The notes beneath the pieces are model-generated. The model saw only the letters and a list, made by a program, of their open reading frames with translations, ran no database searches and was not told the origin of the DNA. A stretch of 64,000 bases of DNA from Candidatus Paraluminiphilus aquimaris (GTDB taxonomy: Bacteria; Pseudomonadota; Gammaproteobacteria; Pseudomonadales; Halieaceae): NCBI RefSeq assembly GCF_026230195.1, contig NZ_CP036501.1:558001-622000 (forward strand), written 5' to 3'. The translations under genes and the position numbers were made by a program. Below, one piece after another: positions 1 through 7,912 of the stretch (the first letter of the stretch is position 1; each line of letters starts with the position of its first letter).

Positions 1-123
1 AGCGACAGCAATGCTGGGACGCTCATCAGCGCGGACAATGACATTACAATGGCATTGTCATCCAAGCGCGTACTCGCAGAAACCATGATTGCTGAGCTCG
101 CGAAACACCTGCCAGAGACATGA
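1..123 (+). CDS. coaBC: Phosphopantothenoylcysteine decarboxylase/synthetase, C-terminal fragment
   Basis: Only the last 40 codons are inside the window; the reading frame is open at the left edge and stops with TGA at 121-123. The residues SDSNA, followed about 15 residues later by a lysine-containing amphipathic helix ending KHLPET, align with the C-terminus of E. coli Dfp/CoaBC (SDNNA then a similar helix). CoaBC makes 4'-phosphopantetheine for coenzyme A. The stop overlaps the ATG of the next gene (ATGA at 120-123), so the two are translationally coupled. In Pseudomonas dut lies between coaBC and algC; here dut is missing from that place. The identification rests on a short tail plus gene order. 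Confidence 0.7.
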   Translation, partial: SDSNAGTLISADNDITMALSSKRVLAETMIAELAKHLPET

Positions 124-2507
124 GTGCATCACGTCCGCCAGAAGGACATATTTCAGCCGAAGAGAGACGTAAGTTACTTATTGCGATTGGCGGCATTGCG
201 CTCGCTGTTGTCCCTACCCTTGCGGCCGCTCTGTACTTAGTCGTCGGCCTATCATTTTCCGAGCAAAGTGCACTCTATAAAGCACAAGTAGATAACGCGC
301 TTTACCAGCGTGCAGACCTGATCAAATCGGATATTGCCGCCATCAAAGATGGCTTGCAGCAAAGTCTATCTGATCGCTCTTTTGAGCAAAACCCAACATC
401 GGCACTGCAATTGATCCCAGGTGGTCGTCAATTCCGCATTATTCCGCTGAGTGATATGGGCGTTGCGAGCCTAGACCCTGAAGACTACGGACTCAGTTCC
501 TTGGTTTTGCTCGACAGAGTGCGCAAGACATTCGAGACCGGCGCCATAGGATTCGAGATTATTAAGCGTGAAGAAACATCTCAACTCGTTGCGGTTGGTC
601 GATTCGAAACGCCCACACAGCGTGGTGTAGCCATTGCAACGCTGCACAGCCATATTCTTGCACGGTGGATGAGTGAGGCCCCCATTGGGCAGTTCAATCT
701 CTGGCAGACCTTTGACGATGCACCCAGCATACAAATATCCGAGTCAGCTGAGTTTCTACCTACGGGATCGGGCGGCCCCATAAAACGAACGATCGAGGGA
801 ACACCCTATATTTTAGGGCTGGATGTCGACCCCTCGATGATGCCATCAACACCGGCATTACCCTTCCTTTTTTGGCCTCTCATTTTAATAGGGCTCTTGG
901 CCAGTTATTGGGTTCTCATCCTTAAGCGCCGCGCTGACTTAGAGGGTGACGTCAAACTCATTCTCGATACTGCCGACTCACGCGACCCCATAAGGTTGCA
1001 GCACTCGGAACTGTCACCTCTCGCCCTCACTGTAAGACAGCTCGCCTCAAATAATAGAAGTCGAATGCGACGCTCGGGCGCAGCCGCCATCCAGCCAGAG
1101 CAGGGTCAGGACATCGCAGCGCGAGAGCCACAAACGCCTCAATTAATTGCCAGCGAATGGACGACAGGGATTGGGGCATGGGTAAGGCTTGCCGAGTCTG
1201 AAACAGAAGCCGTGGAGCAAAATGCTTTAAAGAAGCTGGCGGTAGGTGTTGCAGGTCTTGCCGTGCGATCATCGGCACAATCGTTTGTGGTCTCTTGTCT
1301 GGGCGGAGACAGAGAAATCCGCGCCAAAACTTGTTTCATAAAAGCACTTCTCTCAGAAGGTGTTGACGTGATTGACGTGGGACACGTGCCCACTCCCATA
1401 GCACACATGGCAACCCACAATGGCACCTCATCGGGTGCCGCGTTGGTCCTTCAACGCGATACCAAGGACCGGTTGACGCTTGGCGCGCTCTACAACCGTC
1501 AGTGGGTAGAAGAAGGCTTCTGGCAGAAAATCACCGCGCTCTCTTATGAGCACGTTGCTACATCCTCCAATGGTCGGAGTATCAAGCTCAAGCTAGATGA
1601 TGATTACTGCGACCGCCTTTCGGCCGATATGGCCATGGCGGAAAATCTGCGCATAACCGTTGTCTGCGATAGCCCAATAACACTGTCCATAGCTGAGCAG
1701 AGCTTGCAAAAAGCATCGTGTGACGTACGCAGTGTTTGCCTTGAGCGAGGCTTCTCAGAAAGTGAGGCGCAGGCGCACTTTAGTGGCCATGAGGCAGACC
1801 TCCATTTTGTTTTGAACAGTTGCGCCTCGCGGTTAACCGTCTTTGATGCGCACGGCAATCGGGTTCGCGACGACCATATCTTCATGCTAATTAGCCGAGA
1901 TGCGCTAGCGAGACACCCGGGAAGCGATGTCATTATTGGCTATAAAGGCTCGCGGATCCTCTCGTCATTTGTCACTTCATGCGGAGGAGCCTCAAAAATG
2001 GTGGACTCCGCTCCCCACGTTTTGCAGCGCGAAATGGCTGAAAGTGGCGCAATCATCGGTGGCGACTGCGACGGCGCCTTGTACTTACGCGATCGCTGGT
2101 TTGGATCTGACGATGCAATTTATGGCGGTGCGAGGCTTGCGGAAATTGTCAGTAACGAGGGACCGTTGACAGACCTTATAGCGGCTCTGCCCGAGACGTC
2201 GTTGAGTGTTTTACCCCTCGGTGATAAAACACCGTTGCACGATGCACTCTTGGCCTTATTGTCCGATGAAACCAGTTTTGCAGGCGCTCGGATATCGCAG
2301 GCTAATGGAATTCGCGTAGACTTCGCAGACAGCTGGGCCCACATTGATGATGCATTGGCAAATGATCCCACGCTGAGGTTTGAGGGTGACGACGATAGTT
2401 GCCGCGGCAGACTTGAGGAGCTTGTCGCTGACCTGTTATCGCAGAAGTACCCAGAGTTAGCACTACCGACTCCCCTGCCCACTATGTCAACTTCTAGGAG
2501 CCCATAG
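120..2507 (+). CDS. Membrane-anchored AlgC-like phosphohexomutase-fold protein, probably catalytically dead
   Basis: This 795-residue protein sits where algC (phosphomannomutase/phosphoglucomutase) sits in Pseudomonas. Residues 18-44 and about 247-268 are hydrophobic, enclosing a likely 200-residue periplasmic domain. A linker (about 270-345) leads to a mutase-like region at 345-785. Fold landmarks match AlgC well: GHVPTP (421-426) and RWFGSDDAIYGGARLAEI (659-676). The functional loops do not. The catalytic serine loop (AlgC TGSHNP) reads LQRDTK (444-449), the metal loop (DGDGDR) reads NSCASR (566-571), the sugar loop (GEMSGH) reads GGDCDG (647-652), and the C-terminal phosphate-binding loop (about 738-757) has lost its RxSNT core. 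The frame is intact for its full length and coupled to coaBC, so it is not a decaying pseudogene. A sensory or scaffolding role is inferred; true mutase activity is very unlikely. Confidence 0.8.
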   Translation: MSASRPPEGHISAEERRKLLIAIGGIALAVVPTLAAALYLVVGLSFSEQSALYKAQVDNALYQRADLIKSDIAAIKDGLQQSLSDRSFEQNPTSALQLIPGGRQFRIIPLSDMGVASLDPEDYGLSSLVLLDRVRKTFETGAIGFEIIKREETSQLVAVGRFETPTQRGVAIATLHSHILARWMSEAPIGQFNLWQTFDDAPSIQISESAEFLPTGSGGPIKRTIEGTPYILGLDVDPSMMPSTPALPFLFWPLILIGLLASYWVLILKRRADLEGDVKLILDTADSRDPIRLQHSELSPLALTVRQLASNNRSRMRRSGAAAIQPEQGQDIAAREPQTPQLIASEWTTGIGAWVRLAESETEAVEQNALKKLAVGVAGLAVRSSAQSFVVSCLGGDREIRAKTCFIKALLSEGVDVIDVGHVPTPIAHMATHNGTSSGAALVLQRDTKDRLTLGALYNRQWVEEGFWQKITALSYEHVATSSNGRSIKLKLDDDYCDRLSADMAMAENLRITVVCDSPITLSIAEQSLQKASCDVRSVCLERGFSESEAQAHFSGHEADLHFVLNSCASRLTVFDAHGNRVRDDHIFMLISRDALARHPGSDVIIGYKGSRILSSFVTSCGGASKMVDSAPHVLQREMAESGAIIGGDCDGALYLRDRWFGSDDAIYGGARLAEIVSNEGPLTDLIAALPETSLSVLPLGDKTPLHDALLALLSDETSFAGARISQANGIRVDFADSWAHIDDALANDPTLRFEGDDDSCRGRLEELVADLLSQKYPELALPTPLPTMSTSRSP

Positions 2508-3416
<909 letters not shown>

Positions 3417-4053: not shown

Positions 4054-4706
4054 TTGTCGCGAGAGGCTCTATCGCGGCTGAGTGATCTTCGCAACAAAAC
4101 GACGTCTTGTAGCTGTGCGAATCGATTGCGGTCTCGAGCATAATCCTCAGTTACTGCCGCTACTTGGCCTTCGCGCTCCTCGATCGACCGTCCCGCTGCA
4201 GCGATTTCGGATCTTAATATCTCTACCGCCTCAAGATCTTGAGGCAAAGCGTCTTCACCTCGCCGCTCAAAATCAGCTAAACGGCTGAGTGCCGTCTCGA
4301 GACGCCCCCGCGCAACGCGCTGGTTGCTGGCCAAAATAGAGAGTCGAATTTTAAGCTCGCGCAGTGCACGATCCCGCGCCGCATCAATGTCTTCCACGGT
4401 GCTATAACGGAGCAACAAAAATCGATCCCACTCAGCAAGTCGCGCACGCTCGGCTTCAGCGCCACGCTTGAGTCGCTCGACAAGGTCTTTGTCGTTCAAC
4501 TCTGAGTCACTGAGCTGACGGGGGACGACCTTAATGACTTCACCCAGAGGACTGAGCACCTCGTAGCCTCTCCCTGCGAACTTGGCAGGAACGTGCCAGT
4601 CCACAACGGTACCGCCCTCATTATTTTTGTAACGGTACAGGTTGTCAGCAAAAGCTGTCGAGCAGCTAATAATCGCCAGTAGCACAGCCAGCCGTTTAGA
4701 CACCAT
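4050..4706 (-). CDS. DUF4124-domain secreted protein with coiled-coil C-terminus
   Basis: The 218-residue protein begins with a clear signal peptide (KRLAVLLAIISCSTAFA, cleavage near residue 20). It is followed by a DUF4124-type segment starting LYRYKNNEGGTVVDWHVP, a small beta-rich domain often found at the N-terminus of periplasmic gammaproteobacterial proteins. Residues 75-210 are charged and heptad-like, rich in Glu, Arg and Leu, so probably a long coiled coil. Function is unknown. Its start codon overlaps the last 11 nt of pyrE on the same strand, so it is probably co-transcribed downstream of pyrE. It ends tail to tail with slmA, sharing TTAA. Confidence 0.8.
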   Translation of the reverse strand: MVSKRLAVLLAIISCSTAFADNLYRYKNNEGGTVVDWHVPAKFAGRGYEVLSPLGEVIKVVPRQLSDSELNDKDLVERLKRGAEAERARLAEWDRFLLLRYSTVEDIDAARDRALRELKIRLSILASNQRVARGRLETALSRLADFERRGEDALPQDLEAVEILRSEIAAAGRSIEEREGQVAAVTEDYARDRNRFAQLQDVVLLRRSLSRDRASRDN

Positions 4707-5343
4707 ACTGCTCCCGATAAGCGTTCATTTTTTGCAAGCTACCATTGAGCTCTGGCTGCATCTCCAGCCACTCAATAATGTCGTGCATCGTGATGACCGA
4801 CGTCACGGTTAAACCCAGGGAGGTTTGAACCTCCTCGACCGCAGATTGCGCTCCAACACCCCGCTCGCATCGATCCAGACCAATAACAACACCAACCGGG
4901 TTAGCCCCATGATCACGAATAAGGTCAACGGAGTGGCGAATTGCTGTGCCCGCAGTAATGACATCGTCAACAATGAGAATGTTCCCAGTCAAAGGGGCAC
5001 CTAATAAAATACCCCCCTCGCCATGCGTTTTAGGCTCTTTTCTGTCAAACGTAATCGCAAGATCTCTGTCGTAGCGGGTCCTTAAGGCAATACCGGCCGC
5101 GGTCGCCAGCGGAATACCCTTATAAGCGGGTCCGAATAAACCATCTAGACCCTCTAACATAGGCTGTGCTGCCTGCGCGTAACAATTACCCAGTGTTGCC
5201 ATGGCCTCGCCTGTTGAGAAGACGCCCGCATTAAAAAAGTAGGGGCTTACACGGCCTGATTTTAGGGTAAATTCGCCAAACTTGAGCGCCCCAAAACGGA
5301 TAGCAAGCTCGATAAACTGATTTTTGCTGTCAGATTCCTGCAT
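4696..5343 (-). CDS. pyrE: Orotate phosphoribosyltransferase
   Basis: PyrE joins orotate to PRPP to give orotidine 5'-phosphate, the fifth step of pyrimidine synthesis. The 215-residue length matches E. coli PyrE (213). The PRPP-binding signature ILIVDDVITAGTA is at residues 122-134, the flexible catalytic loop KEPKTHGEGG at 102-111, and SPYFFNAG near the N-terminus is typical. The ATG at 5343 has only a weak upstream purine stretch. It is divergent from the Crc-like gene across a 119-bp gap; I could not find an attenuator of the E. coli rph-pyrE type there, and rph is not directly upstream here. Confidence 0.96.
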   Translation of the reverse strand: MQESDSKNQFIELAIRFGALKFGEFTLKSGRVSPYFFNAGVFSTGEAMATLGNCYAQAAQPMLEGLDGLFGPAYKGIPLATAAGIALRTRYDRDLAITFDRKEPKTHGEGGILLGAPLTGNILIVDDVITAGTAIRHSVDLIRDHGANPVGVVIGLDRCERGVGAQSAVEEVQTSLGLTVTSVITMHDIIEWLEMQPELNGSLQKMNAYREQYGV

Positions 5344-5462: not shown

Positions 5463-6221
5463 ATGAAGGTGTTATCACTGGTAGTCGAGGGCCTTGAGCG
5501 AGCTCGCGAGGATGGGCTAGTCCCTTGGGTCTTTCAGCAGGATGCTGACATCATTTGTTTACAAGATACGCAGTGCTCTGAATATTCGCTTACGTCCAAC
5601 GACTTCTTTCCCAGCGAATACCACGCTTACTTCGCCGACAATTATGATGATCATCGCACTAACGGCGTTGCTCTTTACTGCCGTGAGATGCCCAAGGCCA
5701 TAATGTTTGGTCTGGGGTTCATGGATTACGACCCCTTAGGTTTGTACATTCAAGCCGATTACCCAGAACTCAGTGTAGGCAGTATTTTGGTGCCTTCCAT
5801 TCAGTCAAAGGATGATCCTTCGCGAAAAATGCACTTCCTCAACCAGCTTGGTGGGCATTTACAGAAAGTGCGCAATAAAAAACGTGAATTTATTCTTTGC
5901 GGCGGCTGGGAGCTCGCTTGGCAACCCAGAGATGCCGAAGAATCGGGCAACCGTCTCGATATACCGGGGTTTAGCAGCGAGGAGCGAGACTGGCTCGGCT
6001 CGCTCTACCGAGCAGGCTATACCGATGCCTTCCGACAAGTGGATCACGAAGACGATGACTTCACATGGTGGCCTGAAGGTGACGACAAGCCTGGCCTGCG
6101 AACAGACACGCAGATCATTTCGGACGGTCTCGCCGAGAGGGTAACCGCCGCCTACGTGGAGGGCGAAGAGGCCTTCTCAAGCCATGCACCCGTGATTATC
6201 GAATACGATCTCAACCTATGA
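5463..6221 (+). CDS. crc: Crc-like catabolite repression protein (inactive exonuclease III fold)
   Basis: The 252-residue protein has the endonuclease/exonuclease/phosphatase fold and lies beside pyrE, as crc does in Pseudomonas. It shares with Crc the LQDT (33-36), GVALYCR, PGF..ER.WL and FTWWPEGDD segments. Catalytic residues of exonuclease III are replaced: the Asn of the first strand is Val7, the metal Glu is Asp35, and the GDxN motif reads GGWE (147-150). The terminal His241 (SSHAPV) remains. In Pseudomonas, Crc works with Hfq to repress translation of catabolic mRNAs and lacks nuclease activity. The same role is inferred here, not shown. AGGA at 5452-5455 supports the ATG. The stop abuts that of rph on the other strand. 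Confidence 0.85.
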
Positions 6222-6953
6222 CGCAGCCAATGCCGCCGTCTGCGCTGCATGAAGTTGAATCCCAGCCGATTCCGCAAGATCCAACAAGGCATTCAATTCC
6301 GCCCGGCTAAATACCTTTTCTTCGGCCGTACCCTGCACTTCTATAAGACCGCCGTTGGCGAGCATCACCACATTGATGTCACTGTCGGCGGTTGAATCTT
6401 CTGGGTAATCAAGGTCAAGAACAGCCGTGCCTTGCCACATACCCACAGAAACGGCGGACACCATGCTGATTAGCGGATCAGTTTTGAGGTTGCCGGTACG
6501 CTGCAAGGCGTTTAAAGCAGCAACCAAAGCCACGCTTGCTCCCGTAATGGCGGTTGTTCGTGTCCCACCATCAGCCTGCAGAACATCGCAGTCGATGGTA
6601 ATTGTTCGCTCGCCCAGCTTTTTTAAATCAATGCTTGCACGCAACGACCGGCCAATTAATCGCTGAATCTCAACAGTTCGACCACTCTGTTTTCCTCGAA
6701 CGGCCTCTCTATCAACTCGGGAGTTGGTAGAGCTGGGAAGCATCCCGTACTCGGCCGTCAGCCAGCCTTGTCCTTTTCCCCTTAAAAACCCGGGCACCCC
6801 CTCGCTAATTGAGGCCGTGCAAAGTACACGCGTATCCCCAAATGACGCCAAAACGCTGCCGGCCGCCTGCTTGGTGAATCCGAGCTCAAAGGACACGTCC
6901 CTCATCTGATCGGGGCGACGGCCGCTGGGCCTATTACAGGAATCTTCAGTCAT
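6216..6953 (-). CDS. rph: Ribonuclease PH
   Basis: RNase PH is a phosphorolytic 3'-5' exoribonuclease that trims tRNA precursors and structured RNAs. The protein starts [16 protein letters not shown] and continues with the family pattern [14 protein letters not shown]. The phosphate and catalytic region includes [18 protein letters not shown], and [19 protein letters not shown] near the C-terminus is diagnostic. I chose the ATG at 6951-6953, with AAGGA just upstream, giving 245 residues (E. coli family full length 238). The frame stays open to 7112 but that extension has no similarity to the family. It is divergent from yicC and convergent with the Crc-like gene, overlapping its end by 6 nt. 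Confidence 0.95.
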
Positions 6954-6977
6954 TTCAGTCCTTTTTGTTTGGGGAGG

Positions 6978-7019
6978 TCTATCGCAATAGATGTTCCCAG
7001 TCAGTCTACTTGATAGACT
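6978..7019. promoter_or_regulatory. Two dyads in the rph-yicC divergent promoter region
   Basis: Two short inverted repeats lie in the 95-bp gap between divergent rph and yicC: TCTAT-N4-ATAGA (6978-6991) and AGTCTA-N5-TAGACT (7003-7019). They share the TCTA/TAGA core and their centres are about 26 bp apart. They could be operator half-sites for a dimeric regulator controlling both genes, or chance. No good sigma70 -35/-10 pair could be assigned with confidence. Confidence 0.3.
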
Positions 7020-7048
7020 AAACACTTTGTTAAATGTTGGAGTATTCA

Positions 7049-7912
7049 ATGGCACAAAGCATGACAGGCTTTGCCAGCCAAACCACGACCCTAGGCGAGT
7101 GGAAGCTGTCATTTGAGTGCAAATCTGTCAACAGCCGCTTTCTCGACATTACGCTTAAGCTGCCTGACGTTGTAAAGGTCTGTGAGTCACAGCTCAGGCA
7201 AACAATAAGTGATGCGCTTGTTCGAGGTAAAGTGGAGCTCGCGATTCGACTTGAACGTGACGAGAGCTTCCCCGAAGGCAAAGTCAATGCAGATAAATTA
7301 GCCGAACTCGAGCAGGCCCTAGAAACCATTAGAAATAACGTGTCTGATGTACGCCCGCCGTCAGCACTCGACGTGCTTCAAATGCCCGGCGTTTGGGTTA
7401 GCGAAAAGGCCGACACAAGCAGCCTCGTTGCACATTGCCTCACTTGCGCCCCCGAAGTATTGACGGCCTTGGTTGCTCATCGACAGTCAGAAGGATCCCG
7501 ACTTGAGGCAATGCTTAAAGAGCGTTGTGTCGCCATCACACACATTGTTACCGCTTATCGCAAAGAGTTGCCCGCGCTTACTGACGCCCATGAACAGAAA
7601 CTGCGCGATCGCATTGCGGCACTCAACATTAACCATGATGAAAAACGCCTCGAAGAAGAGTTGGTCTTTCTTGCCAATAAGTCAGATGTTGCCGAGGAAC
7701 TTGACCGGCTGGAAGCGCACATAGAGGCTATTTATGAGGCGCTTAACAGCAACGAGCCTTGCGGTCGGCGGCTCGATTTCCTTATGCAGGAACTCAATCG
7801 GGAGGCAAACACATTGGGGTCTAAAACGACCTCACTGTCCACAACCAATGCCGCGGTTGAGCTAAAAGTACTGATAGAGCAAATGCGAGAGCAGGTACAG
7901 AACCTTGAGTAA
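7049..7912 (+). CDS. yicC: YicC/YloC family endoribonuclease
   Basis: This family is implicated in RNA turnover; in E. coli YicC has been linked to degradation of the small RNA RyhB. The protein begins [10 protein letters not shown], the classic family start, and includes [13 protein letters not shown] and a C-terminal DUF1732 region with [22 protein letters not shown] chose the ATG at 7049 because GGAG (7039-7042) is 6 nt upstream; an in-frame ATG at 7034 would add five residues and precedes the ribosome binding site. Length is 287 residues, as expected. Its end overlaps the gmk start by 8 nt, so the two are likely translated from one message. Confidence 0.92.

Follow-up and report, generated by a model that had tools for sequence, protein, structure and literature searches.

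AlgC of Pseudomonas aeruginosa (PDB 4il8 and 1k35) is a phosphomannomutase/phosphoglucomutase (PMM/PGM) whose gene adjoins argB in Pseudomonas. We analyzed an AlgC-derived gene at positions 120 to 2507 of a 64,000-nucleotide stretch of the Candidatus Paraluminiphilus aquimaris genome (contig NZ_CP036501.1, positions 558,001 to 622,000; here called the window). The encoded protein shares with AlgC the predicted four-domain fold and recognizable scaffold motifs but is changed at 18 of 20 active-site positions, including Ser108, all three metal-binding Asp residues, His329, and Arg421. By locus it is the AlgC orthologue: its gene is flanked by coaBC and argB, which is also the arrangement in other Halieaceae genera. 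The genus with this pseudo-AlgC is referred to as Luminiphilus (OM60/NOR5) in all counts. Membrane-fused AlgC proteins of other Halieaceae and related families (e.g., L074, Pseudohalioglobus lutimaris) have a similar N terminus and the same locus, and these copies retain TGSHNP, DGDGDR, GEFSGH, and RASNT, which the window protein does not; they should be active.

PGM5, or aciculin, is a soluble animal protein. A report on the herring structure (PMC7761743) describes it as belonging to the same superfamily but enzymatically inactive, with a noncatalytic role and retained substrate binding; the window protein, in contrast, possesses membrane helices and is without most of the binding residues. 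The phosphohexomutase GlmM inhibits the cyclase CdaA by contact (PMC8573169) and so likewise acts by protein contact on a membrane signaling protein. Unlike the window protein, GlmM is an active enzyme, and the comparison implies no CdaA partner for the window protein. The double-Cache chemoreceptors PctA and Mlp24 carry a chemotaxis output domain, where the window protein has a mutase-like output. In a literature search that left most subscription papers outside reach, we found no bacterial phosphohexomutase pseudoenzyme, no Cache-mutase fusion, and no description of a membrane-tethered, Cache-bearing AlgC.

Our findings suggest reuse of AlgC as a signaling or scaffold protein. We assign a probability of about 0.5 to the reading in which the catalytic output has been replaced and the protein is retained in the membrane, serving with its pseudomutase domain as a Cache receptor or a scaffold. 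A function of this kind fits best and has precedents in the GlmM-CdaA contact and the inactive PGM5. A signaling role had been proposed in an earlier note on this DNA and is plausible as a hypothesis.

A predicted AlgC fold with a dismantled active site

The gene, its parts, and its downstream neighbor are as follows.

120..2507, +: AlgC-derived pseudomutase gene, intact open reading frame with ATG start, 795 codons/795 amino acids
120..371, +: cytoplasmic start and first membrane helix, codons 1-84, hydropathy peak 26-44
372..827, +: periplasmic alpha/beta domain, double-Cache-like, codons ~85-236
861..1076, +: second membrane helix and linker, codons 248-319, hydropathy peak 250-268
1155..2483, +: four-domain phosphohexomutase fold without active site, codons 346-788, ~440 residues
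1449..1466, +: LQRDTK, replacing the catalytic serine loop TGSHNP, codons 444-449
1815..1832, +: NSCASR, replacing the metal loop DGDGDR, codons 566-571
2058..2075, +: GGDCDG, replacing the sugar loop, codons 647-652
2094..2138, +: RWFGSDDAIYGGARL, including residues shared unchanged by enzymes and pseudoenzymes, codons 659-673
2511..3416, +: argB, three bases after the pseudomutase gene

The likeness to AlgC is not due to chance. A phmmer comparison of the window protein with AlgC gave an E value of 1.3e-31, and the AlphaFold2 model (predicted local distance difference test [pLDDT] 87.3) matched AlgC 4il8 in Foldseek with an E value of 2.1e-34 and a template modeling score (TMt) of 0.86, the AlgC fold being retained in the prediction. 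Pfam placed domain III above its cut-off and domain I below, with domains II and IV unmatched. The landmarks VPTP and RWFGSDDAIYGGARL reported in the earlier note are both present in the 795-residue frame, the latter with the constant residues R659, W660, D665, Y668, and R672, and alignment confirmed the three replaced loops and the loss of the phosphate loop that it had described. In the window protein, Q occupies the catalytic serine column; the sugar loop reads GDCDGA in place of GEMSGH, with E325 and S327 changed to D and H329 to A (codon 653); and the phosphate loop RASNTT is gone, with none of R421, S423, N424, and T425 kept. Only R247 and K285 remain among the 20 active-site positions.

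Start/stop coupling to coaBC, also claimed earlier, is seen as an ATGA overlap between the gene's ATG and the coaBC stop (coaBC, L144:6873-8123; gene start, L144:8120), so that nothing lies between the two genes in the window genome, which is a single contig of 2.72 Mb. No match to Dut was found near coaBC at 26 loci checked, all outside the window genome. Sequencing error or a chimera was ruled out, as independent genomes have the same losses.

Active-site loss across Luminiphilus

The 20 positions, in AlgC numbering with S108 counted out on the alignment to AlgC, were scored in 132 aligned copies, 18 from Luminiphilus and 114 from outside the genus; L032, L033, and L165 were excluded from the enzyme set before counting. 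The outside copies are a sample, with 31 drawn from 22 of the family's 27 other genera and the remainder from an earlier set plus the best 80 of 453 loci. These copies kept 17 to 20 positions, compared with 2 to 13 in Luminiphilus. Within the genus, the HTCC2080 group (L009, L010, L037, L038, L012, L022, and L039, with L022 truncated by a contig end) kept 9 to 13; L011, L014, and L015 kept 8 or 9; and the other eight, including the window protein, kept 2 or 3. Binding residues kept in the manner of PGM5 are therefore not seen in the window protein and only partly in the HTCC2080 group. All seven copies of this group retained H109, K118, D242, D244, D246, R247, and H329, and the six complete at the end also retained S423 and T425. 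The serine column held G in nine Luminiphilus copies, Q in three, L and D in two each, and A and S in one each; the only Ser-bearing copy, L050, reads VVSRDQ in a loop otherwise unmatched.

As the earlier note had anticipated for orthologues, none of the 18 Luminiphilus copies has intact motifs. Recent decay from an intact relative in the genus was ruled out, with 0 of 18 copies keeping more than 13 positions. The 18 copies form one clade in the mutase-domain tree (support, 0.999), and on these sequences the simplest reading would be that catalysis was lost once at the base of Luminiphilus, after which the loops drifted. In the enzymes, 71 columns show a constancy of at least 97%. Of these, 22 retained at least 90% in the pseudoenzymes (domain III contains 16), and 15 fell below half constant, 11 of which are among the 20 active-site positions.

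The membrane and periplasmic part

The two hydropathy peaks enclose ~205 residues, in agreement with the earlier description of two membrane helices around about 200 periplasmic residues. In the model, the first membrane helix continues into a long periplasmic helix (residues 16-84), and the periplasmic part resembles the dCache fold, a likeness that the earlier note did not foresee. Pfam dCache_1 was matched in 9 of 47 aligned N termini (best E value, 1.8e-7), with no Cache match in the window protein. The helix layout of the linker recalls HAMP in the model; Pfam HAMP gave no match in the window protein scanned at an E value of 1 or in five other full-length copies scanned at 0.1.

The membrane fusion, put forward earlier as a special feature, did not hold up as such, since intact-motif AlgC proteins of other genera and families have a similar N terminus. 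Measured from stop to stop, frames of at least 780 amino acids were found in 97 of the 114 outside copies, and 15 of 16 intact-motif AlgC copies from the rest of the order had frames of 802 to 926 amino acids. Some shorter outside frames are truncated by contig ends; others, of ~460 to 550 amino acids, have no N terminus. Because most sampled outside copies have long frames, the fusion is old and not special to the window protein. In genus g44, L156 and L157 have AlgC frames of 510 and 481 amino acids without the membrane part; other g44 species have the long form.

A CpsG-type mutase that may cover the AlgC reaction

A PGM_PMM_I search of the window genome, in line with the earlier proposal to look for a second, intact algC, found none; its two other hits were GlmM and a mutase of CpsG type, both with intact loops. 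GlmM scored above its NCBIfam cut-off, and the other mutase had CpsG as its best NCBIfam match, below that model's cut-off. The CpsG-type gene begins at the end of galU, which is preceded by a GMP/PMI gene; a few genes beyond, on the opposite strand, is pgi. Of the 57 Luminiphilus genomes, 47 had the CpsG-type mutase at an E value of 1e-80. None of the 10 without a match exceeds 85% completeness, and two of these (G019 and G031) contain a full pseudo-AlgC. Among good genomes of the family, 76 of 78 had the CpsG-type mutase. Because of this wide presence, it was very likely there before AlgC catalysis was lost, and it could cover the enzymatic role of AlgC. Genus g23 of the family shows the reverse of the Luminiphilus pattern: L162 has an AlgC frame of 1,027 amino acids with intact motifs, and none of five g23 genomes had a CpsG-type match at the same threshold.

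Selection on pseudo-AlgC

The ratio of nonsynonymous to synonymous substitution rates (dN/dS) was estimated in five pairs by the NG86 method with bootstrap. For L006/L007, dN/dS was 0.168 (0.119-0.227) over the full gene, 0.121 (0.073-0.179) in the mutase domain, and 0.232 (0.150-0.360) in the N terminus; for L009/L010, the values were 0.072 (0.052-0.099), 0.032 (0.017-0.055), and 0.120 (0.078-0.179). Three more HTCC2080-group pairs, with higher silent divergence, gave 0.027 to 0.041 in the mutase domain and 0.079 to 0.103 in the N terminus. The mutase domain was thus below the N terminus in all five pairs, with intervals overlapping only in L006/L007. In the flanking genes of the L006/L007 and L009/L010 pairs, dN/dS was 0.051 and 0.086 for coaBC and 0.016 and 0.055 for argB, respectively; the L006/L007 gene is less constrained than its neighbors, whereas in L009/L010 constraint on the mutase part exceeds that on coaBC. 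Neutral simulation of these two pairs at the silent rate produced means of 17 and 26 stops, and 0 of 500 runs each remained open. Given dN/dS values far below 1 and a tighter constraint on the dead domain than on the sensor, we conclude that pseudo-AlgC is under selection, which is purifying in two subclades. With the losses shared by 18 copies and the fold kept, the low dN/dS bears out the earlier claim of a selected pseudoenzyme at the algC locus. The more specific expectation of dN/dS well below 1 stands for the sister lineages and is poorly measurable for the window copy.

We also compared identities at matched CoaBC identity between Luminiphilus pairs and pairs from other genera; pairs are nonindependent, and CoaBC values for L037 pairs (pN, the proportion of nonsynonymous differences, ~0.72) were dropped as misalignment. 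At CoaBC identities of 0.55-0.62, 0.62-0.70, 0.70-0.80, and 0.80-0.95, mutase-domain identity was 34% (58 Luminiphilus pairs) versus 52% (4 other pairs), 48% (35) versus 58% (58), 60% (14) versus 65% (72), and 89% (7) versus 78% (2). N-terminal identities in the same bins were 28% versus 31%, 39% versus 33%, 47% versus 37%, and 79% versus 57%. The mutase domain therefore underwent an early relaxation and, in recent pairs, is tight once more, with no relaxation of the sensor.

Dispensability and repeated loss of the gene

We examined the coaBC-argB site in 48 of the 57 Luminiphilus genomes. The gene was complete in 18 (a contig end truncates one of these), reduced to a remnant in 3, absent in 26, and not judgeable in 1. 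On a CoaBC+ArgB tree, from which G029 was removed (its locus, L219, stops before coaBC), at least five losses were inferred, assuming that a lost gene is never regained; support is weak at several deep nodes. G114, a genome from the species of the window, is 98.2% identical in DNA across 8 kb up to a break, where the following is absent.

~259..2277, +: 2,019 bp missing in frame from G114, with an uncertainty of two bases at the ends

The remaining 122 codons had a dN/dS of 0.34 (0.15-0.78) versus 0.05 for coaBC and 0.04 for argB, with silent divergence, over few sites, of 0.151 versus 0.050 and 0.110. G128 and G014 have only short stretches broken by stops. Pseudo-AlgC is dispensable and often lost, which the earlier note did not foresee.

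In genome G116 (L049, 3999-4216), the argB adjoining pseudo-AlgC is internally deleted, with only residues 1-36 and 260-294 matching, and a 30% identical homologue is on a different contig. Two argB copies occur on contigs C252 and C170 of the incomplete assembly G008, possibly through contamination. In G063 to G065 and G098, from other family genera (completeness, 60-92%), the best AlgC-profile match reached only E values of 1e-27 to 1e-35, as expected of their CpsG, and further AlgC losses outside Luminiphilus are possible.

Elsewhere in the window, positions 5463-6221 (+) encode an ExoIII-fold protein above the TIGR00633 cut-off whose catalytic motifs look altered (GGWELA and SSHAP). It lies between pyrE-like (4696-5343, -) and rph-like (6216-7112, -) genes, and in position and appearance it resembles Pseudomonas Crc, a known noncatalytic ExoIII relative.

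Receptor, scaffold, or relic

In the model that we propose, the ancestor would have been an active AlgC that a double-Cache-like periplasmic sensor anchored in the inner membrane. With a CpsG-type mutase in ancestral Luminiphilus that could supply mannose-1-phosphate and glucose-1-phosphate, the AlgC active site would then have been dismantled, probably as CpsG sufficed. The Cache part may bind a periplasmic cue that the linker would relay, and the dead mutase domain may serve as cytoplasmic output through contact with a partner protein; the form in the HTCC2080 group, having kept the metal ligands, may still be able to bind hexose phosphate but not convert it. The protein would have been kept in some lineages, with sensor and dead domain constrained, and removed in others. 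Computation supports the predicted fold, the residue losses, the single clade, purifying selection in two subclades, the spare mutase gene, and the repeated gene loss; inactivity, signal, ligand, and partner belong to the proposed model. A narrower version, which we offer tentatively, is that pseudo-AlgC represents a new bacterial transmembrane receptor type that pairs a double-Cache sensor in the periplasm with a dead phosphohexomutase as cytoplasmic output. Its evolutionary steps might still be visible as the live tethered AlgC of sister genera, a serine-less metal- and perhaps sugar-binding form in the HTCC2080 group, and the fully remodeled form of the window.

Several observations weigh against a maintained receptor or scaffold. 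The absence and remnants of the gene in Luminiphilus show that cells can live without it, and in G114 most of the gene has been deleted in frame. The mutase domain diverges faster than live AlgC at CoaBC identities below 0.8, and the active-site columns diverged in many ways with no single new motif. All bootstrapped pairs come from two subclades; the window copy gave a dN/dS of 0.075 against G006, its sole full comparison used for rates, a number that is unreliable with silent sites saturated (proportion of silent differences [pS], 0.744). Because of this saturation, selection in the window lineage rests on the open frame and the sister lineages. The predicted template modeling score (pTM) of the full model, 0.61, leaves the domain arrangement uncertain.

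One alternative is that pseudo-AlgC is a relic being removed, with CpsG covering the reaction, the surviving copies in the window lineage having lost their importance, and the open frame reflecting only recent decay or polar effects on argB. We consider this unlikely overall, although slow decay remains the main rival for the window lineage because of the same-species deletion; the inferred losses, the stop-bearing remnants in G128 and G014, and the 34% versus 52% identity of the mutase domain in the most distant bin also speak for it. Yet all 18 copies have long open frames at identities to the window protein as low as 22% (11 copies aligned), 68 columns are near-invariant, and dead-domain dN/dS is 0.03 to 0.12. 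Polar effects are countered by the gene-less genomes, where argB follows coaBC after 106 to 250 bp and so needs no long gene ahead. That the sensor alone is used, with the mutase domain as passive ballast for folding or dimerization, would explain why, at equal CoaBC identity, N-terminal divergence is about equal to or below that of live-AlgC genera, with faster divergence of the mutase domain in the three comparable bins below 0.8. We regard it as improbable, given that the dead domain has the lower dN/dS in every bootstrapped pair and was never lost from a full copy and that the G114 deletion takes most of both parts. Least probable is an enzyme with altered chemistry or residual serine-independent mutase activity: the residues retained in the HTCC2080 group would suit it, but the window copy keeps only two of the 20, and in the serine column, the only place considered for a substitute nucleophile, the 18 copies share no constant replacement. 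AlgC itself may retain some activity after replacement of its serine, a point on which a search of the literature returned nothing.

AlgC and pseudo-AlgC present, within one bacterial family and at a fixed locus, a series from enzyme to pseudoenzyme to deletion, for which a likely replacement enzyme has been identified. Our findings also point to a membrane-tethered, Cache-bearing AlgC as a form common in the order. Because the series is graded and its locus is fixed, the question of how an enzyme may become a signaling protein is directly testable here.
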